Source: Methanomassiliicoccaceae archaeon (GTDB lineage: Archaea > Thermoplasmatota > Thermoplasmata > Methanomassiliicoccales > Methanomethylophilaceae). From it: a stretch of DNA of 40,032 nucleotides. The stretch is from contig PWHV01000006.1 in assembly GCA_003555025.1 (NCBI GenBank), positions 1 to 40,032 of the forward strand, written 5' to 3'. The notes beneath the pieces are model-generated. The model worked only from the letters and a program-made list of their open reading frames with translations, did not search any database and was not told where the DNA came from. Below, one piece after another: positions 3,693 through 17,070 of the stretch (the first letter of the stretch is position 1; every line of letters begins with the position of its first letter). A program made the position numbers and the translations under genes.

Positions 3693-4768
3693 ATGGTAGG
3701 TTGTTTTCTCGTGTTGGAGGACGGCACCGTTTTAGAGGGTGCCGGTTTCGGCCATCAGGACACGGTGTACGGGGAAGTGGTATTCAACACCGGCATGACC
3801 GGTTACCAGGAGAGCCTCACCGACCCCTCGTACCGCGGACAGATCCTGGTGATGGCCTACCCGCTGATCGGCAATTACGGTATCAAAGAAGGATACCAGC
3901 AGTCGGGCGGGGTGCATGTCAGAGGTTTCGTGGTGCGGGAGGCCTGTGAAGAGCCGAGCTTGATGTACGGCGGCGGGACCGTCGACGCTTATCTTCGTGA
4001 GAACTCCGTCCCGGGCATATCGGACCTGGACACCAGACAGCTGATCATAAAGATCCGCCAGCATGGTACCCTCCGCGGCGCGATCACCAGTTCGGAAGAC
4101 CCTTTCTCCTTGGTCGAGGAGCTGAGGGCCATGCCTTATCCCAACGAGAGCAACCTCATCGCCGAGGTGTCGCCGCGCGAGGTGACGAGGTACGACGAGA
4201 GGAAGCGTTTCACCGTCGGCCTCATAGACTGCGGCGCCAAAGAGGGCATAGTCCGCGACCTCCGCTCACGCTACAACGTCGTCCGCTTCCCCCATGACAC
4301 TCCCGCGGACGCCATCATCGACGCCGGCGTGGACGGCGTCATGGTCTCCAATGGCCCGGGGGATCCCTCCCATCCCGAGATAATGTCCACCACCATCAAG
4401 AACATCCGCGCCGTCGCTGACAGCATACCGCTGATGGGCATCTGCATGGGCAACCAGCTCACCGCCCTGGCCTTCGGCGCTGAGACCTACAAGATGAAGT
4501 TCGGCCACCGCGGCGCCAACCAGTCGGTTGTCTACGGCGGCAAGGTCTACATAACCTCGCAGAACCACGGCTACGCGGTGGACCCCGAATCCCTGCCGGG
4601 CACCGGCCTGGTGGCCGACCAGTTCAACGTTAACGACGGGACGGTCGAGGGGCTGCGCCACGAGGAGCTCCCGGTGTTCACCACCCAGTACCATCCTGAG
4701 GCCTCTCCCGGGCCCACGGACACGGCCTTCCTCTTCGACCGCCTCGGGGATATGATGGAGGCCTGCCA

Positions 4769-4772
<4 letters not shown>
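3693..4772 (+). CDS. Carbamoyl-phosphate synthase small subunit
   Basis: Glutamine amidotransferase subunit of carbamoyl-phosphate synthase; it hydrolyses glutamine and passes ammonia to CarB for arginine and pyrimidine synthesis. The 359 residues contain the N-terminal CPSase small-chain domain (FNTGMTGYQESLTDPSY at about 31-47) and a class I amidotransferase domain. The nucleophile C251 lies in GICMGNQ, and H334 and E336 in YHPEAS complete the triad. The residue two after the nucleophilic Gly is Asn, where many bacterial enzymes have His. It overlaps carB by 4 nt (ATGA), so translation is coupled. Confidence 0.96.
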
Positions 4773-7961
<3,189 letters not shown>

Positions 7962-7972
<11 letters not shown>

Positions 7973-8462
7973 TGATGCTGTTGACGCCGCGGCAACGCTT
8001 CAGCGAGGGTATGTACTCCGGCGGCACCGGGCCCTCGGTGACCACCAGCAGCCTCGGCTCGTCGGTGAGCTCGGGGGCGTCCACCACCGCCTGCCTGATG
8101 CTCACCCCCGCCTCCGCGATCACCGTGGACACATCGGCCAATATGCCAGTGGAGCTGGCATTGGTGGGAACTATCTCCAGCACGCTCCACCCCATGACCT
8201 GCGCCACTGAGGCCAGCAGAGGAATGGGTCTCAGGCGGGTGAACAGGTCGTTGAGCTCCGGGTTGCCCTCGATCCTCGCCAGTGTGGAGCGCACGATGCG
8301 GCGGTCGACCCTTGCCGCCCGCCCCAGGGCGGAGTCGGAGACCTCCACCTCCCCGCAGTAGACCTTCCCCTCGGCGATGCGCATGCCGTGGCGGAACATG
8401 AGCCTCGCCACCTTCTCCTGCGAAGGGTAGCCGATGAAATGGTGGGGGAGCTGCCTCTTCAT
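7962..8462 (-). CDS. ACT-domain predicted regulator of amino acid metabolism
   Basis: A 166-residue protein of the archaeal family annotated as predicted regulator of amino acid metabolism (COG2150 type). The N-terminal half (about 10-65) looks like a small helical DNA- or protein-binding region with DSALGRAARVDRRIVRSTL, suggestive of a helix-turn-helix. The C-terminal half (about 88-166) is an ACT-like ligand domain starting with WSVLEIVPTNASSTGILADV. No enzyme motif is seen. ATG 8462 is chosen because an AT-rich TATA candidate is centred 28 nt upstream; an in-frame ATG at 8501 would add 13 residues. The gene lies between carAB and the aromatic genes, which fits amino-acid sensing, but its target is unknown. 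Confidence 0.75.
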
Positions 8463-8485
8463 GAGGCTTTGATGGTCGATTCCGT

Positions 8486-8495
8486 TAATAATTTT
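8486..8495 (-). promoter_or_regulatory. TATA-like box for the ACT-domain gene
   Basis: AAAATTATTA on the minus strand is centred 28 nt before ATG 8462 and no ribosome site precedes that ATG, consistent with leaderless transcription. It lies back to back with the shikimate kinase promoter. Confidence 0.45.
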
Positions 8496-8555
8496 ATTCA
8501 TCAATGCACAGAAAGGGCCATTGTTGAGAACCGGTCGTGCATTCGGCCCCAGCCG

Positions 8556-8618: not shown

Positions 8619-9476
8619 ATGGCGATGAAGGGTAGAGGCATGGCCCGGGCGTCGGGCAGCATCATCAACGCCATCGTGAGCGGTCGCGGCTGCTCCTTCG
8701 GCATCGACCTGAAGACCTGGGCGGATGTGGAGATCAACGACAGCGGGCGCATCGACATCCGCATCGAGGATAATGAGAACGAGGACAAGTATCTGGTGCA
8801 CCGCTGCGTCTCCCAGGTCCTGGACGCCTACGCCCCCGAGCAGATGTACGGGGCCAAGGTGGTGACCCGCTCGGAGATCCCCATGTCCCGCGGGCTGAAG
8901 AGCTCCTCGGCGGCGGCCAATGCGGCGATAAGGGCCACCCTGGACGCCATGGACGTCGACATCGATCCCTTGGAGGCTCTGCGCATCGGCACCCGCGCAT
9001 CCCGTGACGCCGGCCTCTCCAAGACCGGCGCCTTCGACGACGCTTGCGCCTCTTGGTTCGGCGGCATATGCATCACCGACAACAGCTCCGAGGCGCTTCT
9101 CCGCCGCGGGCGTTTCAACAACGACTACCGGATCATCATCCACGTGCCGCGGCAGAGGGTGCGCAAGAGGGACATCCCCTTGCACCGCATCTCCGCCTGG
9201 AGCGAAATAATGGAGCATGCCTTCGGAATGGCCATCAGCCGCGACTACCTGCGGGCTATGATGCTCAACAGCCTCTGCATATCCGCCGCCCTCGACCTAG
9301 ACCAAGAGGTGTCCATGAACGCGCTGGTCCACGGCGCCTCGGCGGCGGGGTTCACCGGCACAGGCCCCAGCACCATCATTTTAGTGAAGGAGAACCGGGT
9401 CGAGGACTTCCTCAACCTCTTCGAATGCAGGGACGGCGACCTGCGCGTCGTGGACCTGTACAACGGCGAAGACTGA
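8619..9476 (+). CDS. Archaeal shikimate kinase (GHMP family)
   Basis: Phosphorylates shikimate to shikimate 3-phosphate with ATP in the chorismate pathway. It is the archaeal GHMP-superfamily type, unrelated to bacterial AroK. The signature SEIPMSRGLKSSSAAANA forms the ATP-binding loop, and a C-terminal AAGFTGTGPSTIILV is the second conserved glycine motif. From ATG 8619 the protein has 285 residues, normal for the family. GAGGTGG lies 6 nt before this ATG, and homology begins with GRGMARASGSIINAIV; ATG 8571 would add 16 unrelated residues. The stop is 4 nt before the EPSP synthase-like gene, so the two are co-transcribed. Confidence 0.9.
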   Translation: MAMKGRGMARASGSIINAIVSGRGCSFGIDLKTWADVEINDSGRIDIRIEDNENEDKYLVHRCVSQVLDAYAPEQMYGAKVVTRSEIPMSRGLKSSSAAANAAIRATLDAMDVDIDPLEALRIGTRASRDAGLSKTGAFDDACASWFGGICITDNSSEALLRRGRFNNDYRIIIHVPRQRVRKRDIPLHRISAWSEIMEHAFGMAISRDYLRAMMLNSLCISAALDLDQEVSMNALVHGASAAGFTGTGPSTIILVKENRVEDFLNLFECRDGDLRVVDLYNGED

Positions 9477-9480
9477 GGAC

Positions 9481-10710
9481 ATGATCGTATCAGGATCGGA
9501 GATGGACGGCGCAATTCCCGCCACGCCCTCACGCTGGCACACCCAGCTCTGTCTCGCCCTCGCCTCCATGGCGTTCGGCCGCAGCCGCCTGGAGAGGGCT
9601 GTCGTCGATGACGTGACCATTGAGCTGATGAAAGGACTTGAATCGATGGGGGCGGCCTTCAGCATCTCCGGCGGCGACATCACCGTGGACGGCGGGCTAT
9701 TCCATCCCCGCGGCGGGATCGACGCCGGCGGCGACGAGTCCAACCTGGCGCTGCTATGCGCCGTGGCATCCAACCTTCCCCGCGCCAGCCGCATCGCCTT
9801 CGGATCGCGCAGGGCCGAGGCCTATCCATTCCTCAACGCCCTCATGGCATTGGGGGTCTCCGTCTCCTCCCAGGACAAGAGGGGGGAGTCACCGTGGGTG
9901 ATCAAGGGTCCAACGCACAGCAACCACACGCATGTCAGAGGGGACCTGCCCCCCTCTTACGTGTGCTCTCTCGCCCTGGCATCGGTCATGAGGATGAGAG
10001 GGTCCGAGATAGCGGTATCGCAACCCGACCTTAGCCATTCGTTCATGGTTATCACCCAGGACGCTATGATGCGTTTCGGTCTTGGAATGTCGTTCGAAGA
10101 TGGCAGGGTGCGGGTCTCCGGCGAGGAGACCTTGCGGCCGGCCACGGCGCGGGTGCGGGACGACCATGAGCTGGCCTGCTACCCGTTGGTCGCCGGCGCC
10201 ATCCGCGGCCGGGTGACGGTGAGGGGGGACGTGGCCCATGACGCGGGAGTGATGGCGTTGCGGTCCTTCCGGGTCGGGATGGAGGGCTCCGCGGACGGCG
10301 TGACCGCACGGACCTCGCGCATCGAAGGCGGCGGGTTGGACATGTCCCTCTGCCCCCGCGCCTTTCCGGCCATGGCGGTGCTATCGGCCCATGCGCGCGG
10401 AGGCGGCAGGCTGCACTCCGCCCTCCTGCCCGGCCGCGACCTCATAACCCCCACGGTGAAGATGCTGCGGCGCATGGGATGTCTTGCCAGGGCTACGGAG
10501 GACGGCGCCCTGGTGCCTCAATGCGAGCTGCACGGGGCCGACCTCGGCGAGCTCGATGACCCCTTGGTATGCATGGCGGCGATGATAGCCGCAGCCAACG
10601 CCCGGGGCGAGACCTCCATCTCGAACCCGGAGCTGTGCGAATACGAGTACCCAGGCTTCCTTCGGCACATGGAGCTGTTGGGGATGCGGCTGGAGTGGCC
10701 GCGGGGATGA
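9481..10710 (+). CDS. EPSP synthase-family protein with substituted active site
   Basis: The 409 residues align along the whole length with 3-phosphoshikimate 1-carboxyvinyltransferase (AroA): PATPSRWHTQLCLALASMAF matches the N-terminal APPSKSxTxR region, VRGDLPPSYV the GDxSSQ region, and SNPELCEYEYPGFLRHMELLG the C-terminal motif. By hand alignment with E. coli AroA the catalytic and substrate residues are changed: K22 to R18, S23 to W19, R27 to L23, the NAGT loop to GDES (84-87), S169-S170-Q171 to P157-P158-S159, D313 to R293, K340/E341/R344 to P317/G318/L321, and H385-R386 to P361-L362. The gene sits where aroA belongs, between shikimate kinase and chorismate mutase. It may be a very divergent EPSP synthase, a dead regulatory partner, or an enzyme with another substrate. 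The fold assignment is firm; the activity is doubtful. Confidence 0.8.
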   Translation: MIVSGSEMDGAIPATPSRWHTQLCLALASMAFGRSRLERAVVDDVTIELMKGLESMGAAFSISGGDITVDGGLFHPRGGIDAGGDESNLALLCAVASNLPRASRIAFGSRRAEAYPFLNALMALGVSVSSQDKRGESPWVIKGPTHSNHTHVRGDLPPSYVCSLALASVMRMRGSEIAVSQPDLSHSFMVITQDAMMRFGLGMSFEDGRVRVSGEETLRPATARVRDDHELACYPLVAGAIRGRVTVRGDVAHDAGVMALRSFRVGMEGSADGVTARTSRIEGGGLDMSLCPRAFPAMAVLSAHARGGGRLHSALLPGRDLITPTVKMLRRMGCLARATEDGALVPQCELHGADLGELDDPLVCMAAMIAAANARGETSISNPELCEYEYPGFLRHMELLGMRLEWPRG

Positions 10711-10766: not shown

Positions 10767-11039
10767 ATGACTGAAATCGATGAACTTCGTGATATGATAG
10801 AGAGCATCGATAGGGAGATTGTGGAGCTGATAGCGACCCGCATGGAGGTCGCCGACGAGCTCGGCAAGGAGAAGAGCCGGCAGGCCAAGGGGCATCGCGA
10901 CCCCGATGTGGAGATCAAAGTGGTGGAGCGCTATCTGCAGCTGTCCAAAGAGGTGGACATCTCCGAGGAGGACGCCAGGAAGATCGCCCTCACCATACTG
11001 GAGATATCCTTGGAGCGCCAGAAGAAGCTATTCCGATAA
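10767..11039 (+). CDS. Chorismate mutase (AroQ class)
   Basis: A 90-residue all-helical monofunctional chorismate mutase that converts chorismate to prephenate for phenylalanine and tyrosine. Active-site positions of the AroQ family can be matched: R8 in ELRDMI, R25 in IATRMEVA, K34 in LGKEK, the RDPDVEIKVVERY segment, and Q near the end in LERQKK. ATG 10767 has AGGAGG 6 nt upstream. An alternative ATG at 10707 overlaps the preceding stop by 4 nt and would add 20 residues without homology, so it is less likely but possible. It is the last gene of the aromatic group. Confidence 0.88.
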   Translation: MTEIDELRDMIESIDREIVELIATRMEVADELGKEKSRQAKGHRDPDVEIKVVERYLQLSKEVDISEEDARKIALTILEISLERQKKLFR

Positions 11040-11151: not shown

Positions 11152-12210
11152 TTGGACAAGGTTAAAGTAGCGGTTCTTGGCGCCACCGGGATGATCGGGC
11201 AGAGATTCATACAGATCCTCGAGGACCACCCCTATTTCGAGTTCGGAGGACTGTACGCCTCGGAGAGGTCGGCAGGCAAGCGGCTGGGGGACGTTCTGAG
11301 GATCAGGGACCACCGTTTCCGCGATGAAACCCTGGAGATGCCCATCGAGAAGATGGAGGCCAAGACCGTGGCCGACTCATCGCGGGTGGCGTTCAGCGGC
11401 CTTCCCGCCGAGGCCGCCAAGGACATGGAGTCCGAACTGGCCCAGGCCGGTCTGGCAGTGTTCTCCAACGCCTCGTCGCACCGCATGTCGCCGGACGTGC
11501 CGTTGCTCATACCCGAGGTGAACCATGAGCACCTGGACGCCGTCAAGGACCAGGGCTCCTACGCCAACGGCGGCTTTATAGTGACCAACGCCAACTGTTC
11601 CACCACCGGCATCGCCCCGCCCCTCAAAGCCCTGGACGACGCCTTCGGACTGGATCTCGTCACCGTTTCCACCTACCAGGCCATCTCCGGCGCTGGATAC
11701 CCCGGCGTACCATCATTGGACATAGTAGGGAACATCCTGCCCCATATCGGAGGCGAGGAGGAGAAGATAGAGACCGAGATCAAGAAGATGCTGGGCGTTT
11801 GGAAGGATGGTTTCTTGTACTCCGATTTCACCATGCTCGCCAACTGCGCCCGCGTCCCGGTGGTCGACGGCCACCTCGAGGCCATGGTGCTGCGGATGGA
11901 CTCCACCCCCGAGGTGGAGGAGGCGATCGCGGCCTTGGAGTCTTTCCGCGGCCTTCCTGAGGGCATGAGGCTCCCATCGGCCCCAGAGAGGCCGGTCATA
12001 GTCATGAGGGAGCCGGACCGGCCCCAGCCCGCCTTGGACTCCTTCGCCGGGGAGCCGGAGAGGGCCAGGGGGATGGCTGTCAGCGTCGGCCGTGTCCGCC
12101 GGGACGGGGACTGGTTCAAACTGTTCACCCTGTCGCACAACACCCTGCGCGGCGGGGCGGGAGGCTCGTTGCTGAATGCAGAGCTGGCCAAGGCCAAGGG
12201 CCTTCTGTGA
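11152..12210 (+). CDS. Aspartate-semialdehyde dehydrogenase
   Basis: Makes L-aspartate 4-semialdehyde from aspartyl phosphate with NADPH. The 352-residue protein is the archaeal/fungal type: VAVLGATGMIGQRF is the nucleotide-binding N-terminus, VTNANCSTTGIA holds the catalytic cysteine, and a late SVGRVRRDGDWFKLF segment precedes SHNTLRGGAGG. The start is read as TTG 11152 because GGAGG ends 7 nt upstream and no in-frame ATG or GTG precedes the homology. It stands first in a tight operon with the DUF39, NIL/ferredoxin and UPF0280 genes, which use aspartate semialdehyde to make homocysteine, so this copy is dedicated at least partly to that route. Confidence 0.93.
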   Translation: MDKVKVAVLGATGMIGQRFIQILEDHPYFEFGGLYASERSAGKRLGDVLRIRDHRFRDETLEMPIEKMEAKTVADSSRVAFSGLPAEAAKDMESELAQAGLAVFSNASSHRMSPDVPLLIPEVNHEHLDAVKDQGSYANGGFIVTNANCSTTGIAPPLKALDDAFGLDLVTVSTYQAISGAGYPGVPSLDIVGNILPHIGGEEEKIETEIKKMLGVWKDGFLYSDFTMLANCARVPVVDGHLEAMVLRMDSTPEVEEAIAALESFRGLPEGMRLPSAPERPVIVMREPDRPQPALDSFAGEPERARGMAVSVGRVRRDGDWFKLFTLSHNTLRGGAGGSLLNAELAKAKGLL

Positions 12211-12218
12211 GGTTGAAG

Positions 12219-13385
12219 ATGAAACGAAGCTATGAGGAGATCAACGAGAAGCTCGCCAACGGCGACGCCGTGGTCATGACCGCGGAGGAGGTCATAGGCC
12301 TGGTGGACTCCGTTGGAGTGGAGAAGGCGGCCGCCGAGGTGGACGTTGTGACCACCGGGACCTTCGGGGCGATGTGCTCCTCCGGCGCCTTCCTCAACTT
12401 CGGCCACTCCGACCCGCCCATAAAGATGGGCAATATCTGGCTCAACGACGTTCCCGCCTACACCGGCATCGCGGCGGTGGACTGCTACATCGGCGCCAGC
12501 GAGATGATGGAGGGCGACGGCGAGGAGTACGGCGGCGCCCATGTCATCGAGGACCTGATAGAGGGCAAGGCGGTGAAGATGCGCGCCGAGTCCGTCGGCA
12601 GCGACTGCTACCCCCGCAAGGAGATCGAGACCTTCGTATCCCTGGACACCCTCAACGAGGCGTACATGTTCAATCCCCGCAACGCCTATCAGAACTACGC
12701 TGTGGGAGTGAACTCGTCGCCGCGCACCCTGTTCACCTACATGGGCAAGCTGCTCCCCCGCTACAAGAACGCCACCTACAGCTCCGCCGGGCAGCTCTCG
12801 CCACTGCTCAACGACCCCCAGTGCCGGACCGTGGGCCTGGGTACGAGGATATTCCTCGGCGGTAACGAGGGTTACGTGTCATGGCAGGGCACCCAGTTCA
12901 ACACCACTCATCCGACCAGGAACGGAGTGCCGGTGGGCAACAGCAGGACCCTGGCGGTGATCGGTGACCTGAAGGGGATGAGCACCGATTACATCCGCGC
13001 CCTCAGCGTGCACAATTACGGCATATCGATCGCGGTGGGCATCGGCGTGCCCATACCGATACTGGACGAGGACATGATGCGGGCCTGCGCCATCAAGGAC
13101 GAGGAGATATACGCCCCCGTAATCGATTATTCAGTACAATCACGGCGCCGCAAGACGCTGGCGGAGGTGAGCTACGCCGACCTGCGCTCCGGGACCATCG
13201 AGCTCTTCGACCGCAAGGTCAAGACCTCGTCCCTTTCCTCGTACCCCAAGGCCAAGGCCATCGCCGCGGAGCTGAAGAACTGGCTTGACGAGGGGCGGTT
13301 CGAGATCAGCCGGCCGGTGGCCCCGTTGCCTTCCGAGAGCAAGCCCAAGCCTCTGAACATATCCACGCGGGAGGAGCTGGAATGA
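12219..13385 (+). CDS. L-aspartate semialdehyde sulfurtransferase (DUF39, homocysteine biosynthesis)
   Basis: COG1900/DUF39 protein, the family of Methanosarcina MA1821, which together with a NIL/ferredoxin partner builds homocysteine from aspartate semialdehyde and sulfide-derived sulfur. Of 388 residues, C53 (GAMCSSGAFLNFGHSDPP) and C130 (GSDCYPRKE) lie where the family has two conserved cysteines implicated in persulfide chemistry. A further conserved stretch is NEGYVSWQGTQFNT. ATG 12219 is preceded by GAGG with 6-nt spacing; a GTG at 12207 overlapping the asd stop is the alternative. Its stop overlaps the next gene by 4 nt. Immediate linkage to asd supports the function strongly. Confidence 0.9.
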   Translation: MKRSYEEINEKLANGDAVVMTAEEVIGLVDSVGVEKAAAEVDVVTTGTFGAMCSSGAFLNFGHSDPPIKMGNIWLNDVPAYTGIAAVDCYIGASEMMEGDGEEYGGAHVIEDLIEGKAVKMRAESVGSDCYPRKEIETFVSLDTLNEAYMFNPRNAYQNYAVGVNSSPRTLFTYMGKLLPRYKNATYSSAGQLSPLLNDPQCRTVGLGTRIFLGGNEGYVSWQGTQFNTTHPTRNGVPVGNSRTLAVIGDLKGMSTDYIRALSVHNYGISIAVGIGVPIPILDEDMMRACAIKDEEIYAPVIDYSVQSRRRKTLAEVSYADLRSGTIELFDRKVKTSSLSSYPKAKAIAAELKNWLDEGRFEISRPVAPLPSESKPKPLNISTREELE

Positions 13386-13792
13386 CCGTGCGCAAGAAGT
13401 ACCTGCTGGCATTCACCCCGGAGAACGCGAACCTCCCGGTGATAGCGGTCCTGGTGCAGAAGTTCGGCATCATACCGAACATCATGCAGGCCAAGGTGAA
13501 CGAGAGAGGAGGGCGCCTCGTCCTGGACATAGAGGGTGACAGCGAATCCCTGGAGAACGCCAAGGCCCACATCCTCGAGCAGGGCGTGGAGATGAAGGAG
13601 CTCGACCGCCATGTCTTCCGCGACGAGTGGCGCTGCATACACTGCGGAGCTTGTGTGTCGATTTGCCCCGCCGAAGCGTTCCACGTGGACATGGAGACCT
13701 ACGAGGTGCGGTTCAACCCCGAGAAGTGCATAGCCTGCGAGGCCTGCATAAACGCCTGCTCCCCCAAGGCCATGAAGCTGGAGCTATGGTGA
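13382..13792 (+). CDS. NIL-domain ferredoxin, homocysteine biosynthesis partner
   Basis: A 136-residue protein with an N-terminal NIL domain (about 4-77) and two [4Fe-4S] ferredoxin motifs, CIHCGACVSICP and CIACEACINACSP. This is the architecture of Methanosarcina MA1822, which works with the DUF39 sulfurtransferase, probably supplying electrons to reduce the disulfide or persulfide intermediate. Each cluster motif has the four expected cysteines. It is coupled to the DUF39 gene by an ATGA overlap and to the next gene by a short overlap. Confidence 0.9.
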   Translation: MTVRKKYLLAFTPENANLPVIAVLVQKFGIIPNIMQAKVNERGGRLVLDIEGDSESLENAKAHILEQGVEMKELDRHVFRDEWRCIHCGACVSICPAEAFHVDMETYEVRFNPEKCIACEACINACSPKAMKLELW

Positions 13793-14568
13793 TTCGGGAG
13801 CATTTCGAGCTGGGCGAGACCGCCCTCACCATCATCGCCGATGAGGAGTTCATCCCGGCGGGGAAGGAGGCGGTCTTCGACGCCCGTGCGAGCATCGAGG
13901 CCGCCATCGCCTCAGACCCCTATTTCGCCAGTACCTGGGAGCCCATCGAGGCCGTCACCGATGACCGGGTCATCCGCCGCATGTGCTCCGCCGCCGCCGC
14001 GGCGGAGGTGGGGCCGATGGCCGCGGTGGCGGGGACGGTGGCCTGGGAGGCCGTCGAGGCGATGCGCGACGCCGGCGCGGGGACGGTGGTGGCGGACAAC
14101 GGCGGCGACATCGCCCTGGTCTGCGAGCGCCCGGTCACGGTGGGGATTTACAGCGGCGGCCCCCTCCGCAACCTGGGGCTATCCGTCGGCCCCCGCTCCG
14201 ACGTGCTGGGAATCTGCAGCTCCTCCGCCAAGGTGGGGCACTCCATATCCCTGGGCGAGTCCCATGTCTGCACCGTCGTGGCCGAGGACGTGAGCCTGGC
14301 CGACGCGTTCGCGACCGCCCTGGGCAACATGGTAGCCAGCGACGACGTCCACCATCTACAGGAATGCGTCTCCAGAGTGGCCAGCTTCAAAGGGGTAAAG
14401 GGGGCGATGGCCAACATCGGCGAGAATCTGGCCATGGCGGGCGACCTGCCTCGGCTGGTCAGGGTAGAGGAGAGGGAGGCGCTAATCACCAGACGCAGCC
14501 TGAATATCGGAGGTAATCCTTTTTTAGGCGCAGAATATATGGACAAAGGCGAGGAGAGAAGGCGATGA
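13786..14568 (+). CDS. UPF0280 (ApbE-like) protein, sulfide assimilation
   Basis: COG2122 family protein of about 260 residues, related in fold to ApbE flavin transferases. Its Methanosarcina relative MA1715 is reported to aid efficient sulfide assimilation into homocysteine. Conserved features seen are VGPMAAVAGTVAWEAVEAM, VVADNGGDIAL and VLGICSSSAKVGHS. Being fourth in the asd-DUF39-NIL/ferredoxin operon fits that role. The start may be ATG 13786 or GTG 13789; the latter gives a 4-nt GTGA overlap and better spacing from GGAG. Its 3' end contains an AT-rich patch that may be the hisG promoter. Confidence 0.82.
   Translation: MVIREHFELGETALTIIADEEFIPAGKEAVFDARASIEAAIASDPYFASTWEPIEAVTDDRVIRRMCSAAAAAEVGPMAAVAGTVAWEAVEAMRDAGAGTVVADNGGDIALVCERPVTVGIYSGGPLRNLGLSVGPRSDVLGICSSSAKVGHSISLGESHVCTVVAEDVSLADAFATALGNMVASDDVHHLQECVSRVASFKGVKGAMANIGENLAMAGDLPRLVRVEEREALITRRSLNIGGNPFLGAEYMDKGEERRR
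14533..14541 (+). promoter_or_regulatory. Possible internal promoter for hisG
   Basis: GAATATATG, in an AT-rich patch within the last codons of the UPF0280 gene, is centred 28 nt before ATG 14565 of hisG. That is the spacing of a leaderless archaeal promoter, although the hisG ATG also has a GGAG site. It would allow the his genes to be expressed apart from the homocysteine operon. Confidence 0.35.
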
Positions 14569-15428
14569 CCCTGCGAATGGCCGTACCCAACAAAGGCAGA
14601 TTGAACGAGAGGGCGCTGGAACTGCTCCACAAAGCGGGGCTGGAGATGGACATCAATTGGGGACGACGCCTTTACGCCGCCGCCGAAAACCAGGACATGG
14701 AGGTGATGTTCGTCCGCGCCCAGGACGTCCCCCGTTTCATACACAGCGGCACCGTCGACATGGGGATAACCGGTCTCGACCTAATACTAGAGGCCGACCT
14801 CGATGTGGAATGGGTACTGGACCTCGACTTTGGGCACTGCCGTCTGGCGGTGGCCGCCCCCGAGGCCACGGGATACACCAGCGTGGAAGACATCCCCGAG
14901 GGCGCCCGGGTGGCGACCTCCTTCCCCAACCTGGCCTGGCAGTTCTTCGCCGGCCGCGGCAAGAACGTGGAGATCGTCCGCGTATCCGGGGCGGCGGAGA
15001 TAACGCCGCACATCGGAGTGGCGGACCTCATAGTCGACCTCGTCTCCAGCGGGTCCACGCTGCGCACCAACCGCCTTGTCGAGCTGGACAGCATCATGCA
15101 CTCCCAGGCGGTCATCGTGGCCAACCCGGACAGCCTGCAGTCGAAGGGCAAGGAGATAAACGACCTGGGGTCTTCGGTGGAGAGCGTTCTGCTGGCGGAG
15201 AAGAAGAAGTACCTGATGGCGGACATCATGAGCGACACCTTGCCAGAGGTGGAGAGGATCTTCCCCGGCGTGGCGGGGCCCACGGTGATGAACATCGCCG
15301 GCCGCGACGACATGGTGGCGATACACGTGGTCATCGACAAGAGCGAGGTCTACGATGCGGTCAACTCCTTGAAGTCCATGGGAGCCAAGGGCATATTGAC
15401 CCTGCCCATCGACAGGCTGGTGCCATGA
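14565..15428 (+). CDS. ATP phosphoribosyltransferase (long form)
   Basis: First step of histidine synthesis, joining ATP and PRPP. At 287 residues it is the long HisG, with the catalytic domains (MAVPNKGRLNERALELL at the start, and a PRPP loop with VDLVSSGSTLRTNRLVEL) and a C-terminal ACT-like regulatory domain of about 75 residues that allows histidine feedback without HisZ. It overlaps the UPF0280 stop by 4 nt and hisC by 4 nt. A GGAG site precedes ATG 14565. Confidence 0.95.
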   Translation: MTLRMAVPNKGRLNERALELLHKAGLEMDINWGRRLYAAAENQDMEVMFVRAQDVPRFIHSGTVDMGITGLDLILEADLDVEWVLDLDFGHCRLAVAAPEATGYTSVEDIPEGARVATSFPNLAWQFFAGRGKNVEIVRVSGAAEITPHIGVADLIVDLVSSGSTLRTNRLVELDSIMHSQAVIVANPDSLQSKGKEINDLGSSVESVLLAEKKKYLMADIMSDTLPEVERIFPGVAGPTVMNIAGRDDMVAIHVVIDKSEVYDAVNSLKSMGAKGILTLPIDRLVP

Positions 15429-16471
15429 TGGACCGCTCCTTGATGCGAGAGTCCGCCCGCCATTTCAAGCCCTATTACAGCCCCGACGCCGACGGAGCGC
15501 TGCGCCTTGACACCAACACCAATGTGCTGGGGCCCAACCCCGCCGCCGCGGCGGCCCTCGCCGACCTTAGCTGCCTCGACTTCAACCAGTACCCGGACAC
15601 CTACTCAAGGCCTTTGCGTCGCAAGCTGGCCGGATTCCACGGCCTCAGCGAGGACAACTTCGTCACCGGCTCCGGATCCGATGAGATAATCGACATACTG
15701 TTCAAGACCTTCACCGACAAGGGGGACGTGGCCGTCATGCCCCATCCCTCCTACTCCATATACGAGTATTTCAGCGAGCTTCATGGCGGCGTCCCGGTCA
15801 AGGTCGACCTCGACGACGGGTTCCAACTGGACGTCGAAGGGATGCTGGCCCCTGACGCGGCCATCATAATGATCCCCTCACCGAACAATCCCACCGGCAA
15901 CTCCTTCCGCCGCGAAGACCTCATAAGCATCATCGAGCGAAGCGATCGCCCGGTGGTCATCGACGAGGCCTACGGCGAGTACCACGGCGACTCCTTCATA
16001 CCTTTGGTGGAGGAGTATGACAACCTCATAGTCACCCGCACCTTCTCCAAGGCCTATGCGATGGCGGGGCTGCGCGTCGGCTACTGCGCCTGCAGCGCCG
16101 CCGCGGCGGAGATGATGACCTGCATCAGGATACCTTACTCGTTGAACATGGTCAGCGAGAGGGCGGCCGTCGCCGCATTGGAGGACCAGGATTTCATCAC
16201 ACGGACGGTGGAGATGACGGAGAAAAACCGTCCGATGCTCGCCAAGGGCCTGGAGGGGATGGGGTTCCGATGCTTCCCCAGCGACGCCAACTTCATCCTG
16301 GCGAGGTCGCCTGTTGACCACCGCGGACTGGTGGACGGCCTCAAGGAGCGCGGCATACTGGTGCGTGACTTCGGCCACCGCCGCCTGCTGGAGGGCTGCG
16401 TGCGCTTCACCGTGGGCACCGAGGAGATGAACCAGAGGCTGCTGCGGGCCTGCAGGGAGCTGATAGGATGA
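15425..16471 (+). CDS. Histidinol-phosphate aminotransferase
   Basis: PLP-dependent fold-type I aminotransferase of 348 residues that converts imidazole acetol phosphate to histidinol phosphate. Seen are MIPSPNNPTGNSF, VVIDEAYGEY with the PLP-binding Asp, and TRTFSKAYAMAGLRVGY with the Schiff-base lysine. The C-terminus has GCVRFTVGTEEMN with the substrate-carboxylate arginine. The start is ATG 15425 (overlapping the hisG stop) or the adjacent ATG 15428. Position inside hisG-C-H-A separates it from the CobD-like aminotransferase at 37926. Confidence 0.94.
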   Translation: MMDRSLMRESARHFKPYYSPDADGALRLDTNTNVLGPNPAAAAALADLSCLDFNQYPDTYSRPLRRKLAGFHGLSEDNFVTGSGSDEIIDILFKTFTDKGDVAVMPHPSYSIYEYFSELHGGVPVKVDLDDGFQLDVEGMLAPDAAIIMIPSPNNPTGNSFRREDLISIIERSDRPVVIDEAYGEYHGDSFIPLVEEYDNLIVTRTFSKAYAMAGLRVGYCACSAAAAEMMTCIRIPYSLNMVSERAAVAALEDQDFITRTVEMTEKNRPMLAKGLEGMGFRCFPSDANFILARSPVDHRGLVDGLKERGILVRDFGHRRLLEGCVRFTVGTEEMNQRLLRACRELIG

Positions 16472-17070
16472 CCCTCAAAGTGTCGCTGGCCGACTACGGG
16501 GTGGGCAATCTTCACTCCATACGCAAGGCCCTGGAGATCTGCGGCGCCGAGGTCTCGGAGGTGGAGGACATGTCCCTTCTCGCTGAGGCCGACTGCATCG
16601 TCCTTCCCGGGGTGGGGGCGTTCAACCGCACCATGGAACGGCTCCTGCCTTTCCGCGACCGCATCATCGAGCGCCTGGAGGGCGGCACCCCCGCGCTAGG
16701 CATCTGCATCGGTATGCATATCCTCTTCGAGGGCAGCGATGAGGGGGACTCCCCCGGGCTGGGCTTCATCGATGGCTCGGTCGTCCCCATGGAAGCTAGC
16801 AGCCTCCCTCACATGGGATGGAACGACATCGATGGCAACGACCCCATCTTGGAGGGGGTGGACGACCGCTACTTCTATTTCGCCCATTCCTATCGCGCCC
16901 GCCCCGATGAACCCTCGGCGATAGTGGGCTCGACCTATTACGAAAGCATGTTCCCCTCCTTGTTCCGCTGTGAGAACACCTACGGGTGCCAGTTCCATCC
17001 GGAGAAGAGCAGTTCCTCCGGGCTCAGGTTGCTGGAGAACTTCGTCGGCTTCGCGGAGGAATGCCTGTGA
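16468..17070 (+). CDS. Imidazole glycerol phosphate synthase, glutaminase subunit
   Basis: HisH supplies ammonia from glutamine to HisF. The 200 residues form a class I amidotransferase: LADYGVGNLHSI at the N-terminus, LPGVGAFN oxyanion-region motif, the nucleophile in GICIGMH, and the His-Glu pair in FHPEKS. It overlaps hisC by 4 nt. Its partner hisF lies 5.7 kb away beyond the inserted kinase locus. Confidence 0.95.
   Translation: MTLKVSLADYGVGNLHSIRKALEICGAEVSEVEDMSLLAEADCIVLPGVGAFNRTMERLLPFRDRIIERLEGGTPALGICIGMHILFEGSDEGDSPGLGFIDGSVVPMEASSLPHMGWNDIDGNDPILEGVDDRYFYFAHSYRARPDEPSAIVGSTYYESMFPSLFRCENTYGCQFHPEKSSSSGLRLLENFVGFAEECL

Follow-up and report, generated by a model that had tools for sequence, protein, structure and literature searches.

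An EPSP synthase-fold protein without EPSP synthase active-site residues, kept between shikimate kinase and chorismate mutase paralogues in Methanomethylophilaceae: a putative non-catalytic partner

The window analyzed is a stretch of 40,032 nucleotides, positions 1 to 40,032 of contig PWHV01000006.1 (assembly GCA_003555025.1), from a Methanomassiliicoccaceae archaeon assigned to the family Methanomethylophilaceae. On its plus strand, carA-carB (3693..7972), recognized from their open reading frames and from conserved gene order, form the left boundary of the ancestral aro slot, while the gene for aspartate-semialdehyde dehydrogenase, asd (11152..12210, plus strand; TIGR00978, 394.8 bits), with order-wide synteny, forms the right boundary. 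Between them lie a divergent gene for a TrpY-family ACT-domain transcription regulator (7962..8501, minus strand) and three genes on the plus strand: SK2 (8640..9476), a GHMP-type shikimate kinase paralogue with a TIGR01920 score of 248.5 bits against a cut-off of 126.85; EPSP2 (9481..10710), an EPSP-synthase-fold protein of 409 amino acids, with an ATG start and a TGA stop, that is devoid of EPSPS active-site residues; and CM2 (10767..11039), a stand-alone AroQ-type chorismate mutase of 90 amino acids matched by PF01817 at 54 bits (cut-off 27). A syntenic block downstream (12207..17070, plus strand) encodes HcyBio, which is a sulfur-incorporation enzyme, a NIL/4Fe-4S ferredoxin, a UPF0280 (PRK04334)-type protein, and the products of hisG, hisC and hisH, the last three named by homology and reading of the ORFs.

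The stop codon of SK2 is separated from the ATG of EPSP2 by 4 bp, a gap that suggests translational coupling. Of 45 conserved shikimate kinase columns, 39 were fully kept in all SK2 copies, with a few changes found at motif edges (G3A, V125L and A243S). CM2 keeps R8, R25, K36, E49 and Q85, which correspond to the catalytic R11, R28, K39, E52 and Q88 of EcCM; to judge from these comparisons, the catalytic positions of SK2 and CM2 are intact. CM2 is without the tyrA domain carried by the ancestral gene and scored 44.4 with TIGR01791, under the cut-off of 66.95. A role of SK2 as homoserine kinase, considered on account of the asd neighbor, is unlikely, since SK2 falls far under the thrB cut-off and ThrB is encoded on contig C26, so that SK2 need not fill that role. 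The regulator scored 173.8 bits with NF053754 (TrpY_fam), slightly under the cut-off of 180, and its PF01842 ACT match is weak. It is divergent from SK2 and is present in the ancestral aro slot throughout the order; the intergenic region upstream of SK2 showed no conserved TGTACA, the TrpY-box-like motif.

The sole Pfam match of EPSP2 is EPSP_synthase (PF00275), covering residues 6-396 with an E value of 2.7e-22, which bears out the claim of an earlier, sequence-only reading that the protein is an end-to-end AroA homologue. With the aroA model TIGR01356 it scored 128.1 bits, under the 287-bit equivalog cut-off. An AlphaFold model built from a seven-sequence alignment retained the EPSPS fold with a pLDDT of 77 and a pTM of 0.79, and in a Foldseek search against the PDB the best matches were EPSP synthases, with many EPSPS entries at a TM of about 0.8. 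The two-domain fold spans the full length of EPSP2; the known chemistry is not kept. MurA and other enolpyruvyl transferases have the fold superfamily in common with EPSP2, but the scores exclude both identities: the MurA model TIGR01072 gave 22.8 bits against a cut-off of 392.7, and the structural matches ranked AroA first. Recoding of TAG for pyrrolysine was dismissed, as the stop is TGA, and so was a frameshift or pseudogene, given an intact ORF ending in TGA, orthologues in seven genomes and low dN/dS. Gene position alone would label EPSP2 as aroA, which is a caution for annotators.

Residues were numbered on the E. coli AroA sequence, against which the residue numbers given in the sequence-only reading were found correct, and were compared with those of 78 canonical relatives belonging to the same class. 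All 78 keep K22, S23, R27, G96, T97, R124, S169, S170, Q171, Y200, D313, K340, E341, R344, H385 and R386; EPSP2 retains none of these 16 invariant sites, which confirms that nearly the whole active site has been replaced. The replacements are K22R, S23W, R27L, G96E, T97S, R124A, S169P and S170P, followed by Q171S, Y200F, D313R, K340P, E341G, R344L, H385P and R386L, and among the tabulated active-site positions S197 and D384 alone are kept. K411, previously listed as probably lost, is uninformative, as the canonical relatives carry V or I there. A separate profile-profile alignment placed the same residues at the same EPSP2 sites; therefore a corrected alignment does not rescue the active site, and misalignment concealing canonical residues is excluded by two independent alignments. 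Nor does the loss stem from sequencing error or chance, because it is shared by the orthologues of five sister species and by one more distant orthologue.

A genome-wide profile search for a second, canonical aroA, suggested in the sequence-only reading along with structure prediction and a phylogeny, found two PF00275 loci in the window genome, the window copy at 78.6 bits and another at C7:103114-104313 with 353.9 bits. The C7 AroA, to which EPSP2 is about 35% identical, scored 415.9 bits with TIGR01356 (cut-off 287) and belongs to a complete operon, AroA'-AroB'-AroDE-SK-AroA-AroC-CM.TyrA, whose products include an AroA'-type aldolase, an AroB'-type DHQ synthase, an AroDE fusion and a chorismate mutase-TyrA fusion. 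The genes for S12, S7, EF-2 and EF-1a lie near this operon; they, AroA' and AroB' were named from reading of the sequence. Contamination as the source of C7 was rejected on the basis of these adjacent translation genes, the occurrence of the operon in all six congeners and a contamination estimate of 0.22%. Since C7 carries the complete operon with the canonical aroA and the single aroC of the genome, EPSP2 is not the only aroA of the organism and is dispensable for EPSP and chorismate synthesis, and the C7 copy probably does the EPSP chemistry. It had been considered that EPSP2 might still be an EPSP synthase with a different catalytic residue set, a new active-site solution for chorismate synthesis, in keeping with its preserved fold, length and operon position. 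This is disfavored to the point of being hardly credible, since the cleft has lost nearly all its cations as well as the acid/base residues, and a canonical aroA in a complete operon is present in the same genome and in every other genome with EPSP2.

EPSP2 orthologues were found in all six genomes of the window genus (G000-G005) and in one genome (G012) of a second early-branching genus of Methanomethylophilaceae. In all seven, EPSP2 lies between an intact SK2 and a stand-alone CM2, beside the TrpY-family regulator, and the canonical aro operon is present as well (7/7). Scanning of 102 family genomes with the protein and of 150 class genomes with PF00275 recovered no further member of the variant. 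SK2 was not found in the other family members sampled, nor was an EPSP2 hidden in their slot, which holds CM alone or unrelated genes. In one genome of genus g10 (G014), which the tree of canonical AroA resolves as sister of the window genus, SK2 and EPSP2 were not detected; a second loss there is uncertain because the genome is only 73% complete. The genomes of the EPSP2-bearing genus are mostly MAGs from soda lakes: five carry sample names (CSSed10, CSBr16, B1Sed10) identical or similar to those of the Kulunda soda-lake series (PMC6146748 for CSSed10 and B1Sed10), and one is named Sandtown.

With the window family labeled f1 and the other families of the order f2-f6, the order carAB - TrpY-like - (aro slot) - asd was found conserved in f1-f6. 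In f2, f3, f5 and f6 the slot carries the full canonical operon AroDE-SK-AroA-AroC-CM.TyrA; in the window genus it is reduced to SK2-EPSP2-CM2, and in most other f1 members to CM alone, with nothing or unrelated genes in a few. The earlier placement of EPSP2 between shikimate kinase and chorismate mutase thus holds, but the operon is not intact, being a relict without aroC, aroDE and tyrA. In the shikimate kinase tree SK2 is nested in the clade of families f2-f6 (98), apart from the f1 clade (100). An AU test with all f1 kinases and SK2 joined as one clade gave p 0.07 and did not reject that topology; the tree alone is not decisive for the origin of SK2, and synteny carries most weight. All EPSP2 sequences fall in a single clade (98) that groups, on long branches, with the order-type AroA (86). 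In a tree of Asd, HisG and HisC the first splits within the family lead to the two genera with EPSP2, and the 16 other members, which have neither SK2 nor EPSP2, cluster in a clade of their own.

The simplest account is that SK2-EPSP2-CM2 is a relict of the ancestral operon, left behind when a second complete operon arose in the family by acquisition or duplication, and that SK2 and EPSP2 were later lost once. In the common ancestor of the family two chorismate operons would have come to coexist, one of which (the present C7 copy) kept every enzyme, the other, in the ancestral slot, being trimmed to SK2-EPSP2-CM2; EPSP2 would then have lost its catalytic and phosphate-binding residues. Read in this way, the cassette traces the paring-down of a duplicated operon, from the complete operon through SK-EPSP2-CM to CM alone.

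Several further features of the slot were observed. A stand-alone CM persists after loss of SK2 and EPSP2 (loci L127-L132, L134-L137, L141, L142 and L144), and in all 13 slot CMs aligned the equivalent of CM2 R44 is W and that of G33 is A, unlike in the rest of the order. In genus g9 the slot contains an ORF of about 800 amino acids (L133:4228-6630 and L140:3487-5868), the L133 copy scoring as an AAA-ATPase/TPR protein. In the sister family f4 (G039; L117, L139) the canonical aro operon has been relocated in full to a different contig; the slot is empty and the TrpY-like gene directly adjoins asd.

Selection on EPSP2 was evident from within-genus pairs, in which its dN/dS was 0.08-0.27 as compared with 0.08-0.16 for canonical aroA, and stayed far under 1 in pairs whose dS reached about 2; SK2 and CM2 are held tighter (0.02-0.08). 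Between genera, SK2 is 70% identical, CM2 68%, canonical AroA 54% and EPSP2 only 27%, which suggests weak constraint or a different role of EPSP2 in the second genus. This divergence, far faster than that of the neighbors, and the fact that the remaining family members have lost both SK2 and EPSP2 are what might be expected of a decaying paralogue that has no role in its own right and is for now translated between SK2 and CM2 as a spacer or chaperone. Such decay is decidedly improbable in view of full-length ORFs in seven genomes, dN/dS well below 1 and a fold predicted intact.

When canonical AroA was compared among these genomes, all 19 active-site columns proved invariant, a figure matched by 0 of 20,000 random samples, as against 11 of 19 in EPSP2, which is not above background (p 0.17). 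The former active site of EPSP2 thus does not stand out from the remainder of the protein; selection acts on EPSP2, but there is no visible sign that it acts on chemistry at that site. The main rival to a partner role is a new ligand or reaction in a rebuilt pocket, EPSP2 being an enzyme whose cleft would act on the SK2 product, perhaps within a short SK2-EPSP2-CM2 route. Within the genus, K22R, S23W, S169P, S170P, D313R, K340P, E341G, H385P and R386L are uniform; the former active-site loops PSRWHTQ, CPRxFPA, PGRDxITPT and DDPLV are conserved, with the PSRWHTQ and PGRDxITPT regions the most conserved stretches of the protein; two new arginines have appeared at sites 22 and 313; and SK2 has the few motif-edge changes given above. 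On the other hand, there is free variation at sites 94, 124, 200 and 344, the former active-site positions carry a quite different residue set in the second genus, and neither a candidate reaction nor a pathway lacking a step was identified. The proposal of the sequence-only reading that EPSP2 is an enzyme for another substrate therefore finds some support in the genus-wide conservation of some rebuilt loops but not in the active-site columns as a whole, and it is considered unlikely.

EPSP2 has two of the marks by which a pseudoenzyme is recognized: residues kept in the active-type paralogue of the same genome are lost from it, and its reading frame is intact and under purifying selection in several species (seven genomes). 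That it is a selected pseudoenzyme, a putative non-catalytic partner of SK2 and possibly of CM2, is given an even chance. Among the roles put forward in the sequence-only reading, whose overall interpretation is partly supported, a non-catalytic partner fits best with seven intact ORFs, purifying selection, the disappearance of the charges that bind substrate and a former active site that is not especially conserved. In the partner model EPSP2 would make no EPSP; it would pair with SK2, with which it always co-occurs at a distance of 4 bp, and possibly with CM2, and may tune or stabilize flux into chorismate or prephenate, with the cassette seemingly under TrpY-type control. Physical interaction and regulation by EPSP2 are what we infer from this arrangement; HisZ acting on HisG(S), or TSB-like on TSA, would be comparable cases. 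Because EPSPS normally occurs as a monomer, a ready-made interface would be wanting, which counts against the partner reading, as do the 27% identity between genera and the genus-conserved former active-site loops, which would also fit a ligand pocket.

A third possibility is that EPSP2 binds a ligand without turnover, as a QutR-like metabolite sensor or regulator acting with the divergent TrpY-like regulator. EPSP2 is adjacent to that gene, and a regulator of the TrpY kind controls, as an activator, aromatic amino acid operons of Thermococcus (PMC6737238). A precedent is QutR, the fungal repressor of quinate use, which derives from shikimate-pathway enzyme domains and is regarded as an inactive relative of AROM domains that has retained inducer binding (PMC10512348). 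The AROM domains that QutR matches, however, are those of shikimate kinase, dehydroquinase and shikimate dehydrogenase, not that of EPSPS. A sensor role is quite unlikely, since EPSP2 has no DNA-binding domain, with EPSP_synthase as its only Pfam match, its S3P- and PEP-binding residues are lost, and the TrpY-like gene fills the slot also in families without EPSP2, so that the pairing of the two is not specific.

The closest known protein is AroA, of which EPSP2 shares the full-length two-domain fold, about 35% identity and the shikimate kinase neighbor; it differs in the replacement of the tested S3P- and PEP-binding and catalytic residues save S197 and D384, in its location outside a complete chorismate operon and in its score (128 vs 287 bits). 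AroA is the target of glyphosate, and its active site is normally among the most constrained of enzymes. A selected homologue with an erased site, retained next to a kinase and a mutase of active type, is a natural experiment on the EPSPS scaffold without the chemistry. HisZ derives from an enzyme family, that of histidyl-tRNA synthetase. As a regulatory subunit that enhances ATP phosphoribosyltransferase (PMC9734150), HisZ is a proposed parallel for EPSP2 in that an enzyme of amino acid biosynthesis is enhanced by a regulatory protein, but its fold is unrelated and its effect is proven. TSB-like of eudicots, a dead aromatic-pathway paralogue shown by assay to activate the subunit partner TSA (PMC12727527), resembles EPSP2 in lacking catalytic residues and being retained beside an active-type genome copy; two key residues are changed there, as opposed to more than 12 in EPSP2, for which the partner is a putative one. 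In the deoxyhypusine synthase of trypanosomatids a dead paralogue activates the enzyme (PMC3663545) and is likewise retained under selection alongside it, but it pairs with its own active paralogue, whereas EPSP2 sits with SK2 and CM2. An EPSPS fold serving as an obligate allosteric partner of an SK/CM pair, or catalyzing a new reaction within a reduced SK-X-CM route, is a tentative and rather unlikely outcome; such a function for this fold was not found in the literature searched.

Between G000 and G001/G002 the canonical aro operon of the window genus is fast-evolving, at 58-68% identity, and most flanking biosynthetic genes of the window are at 75-88%. In the same comparison SK2 has evolved far more slowly than the canonical SK, with identities of 84-87% versus 58-59%.
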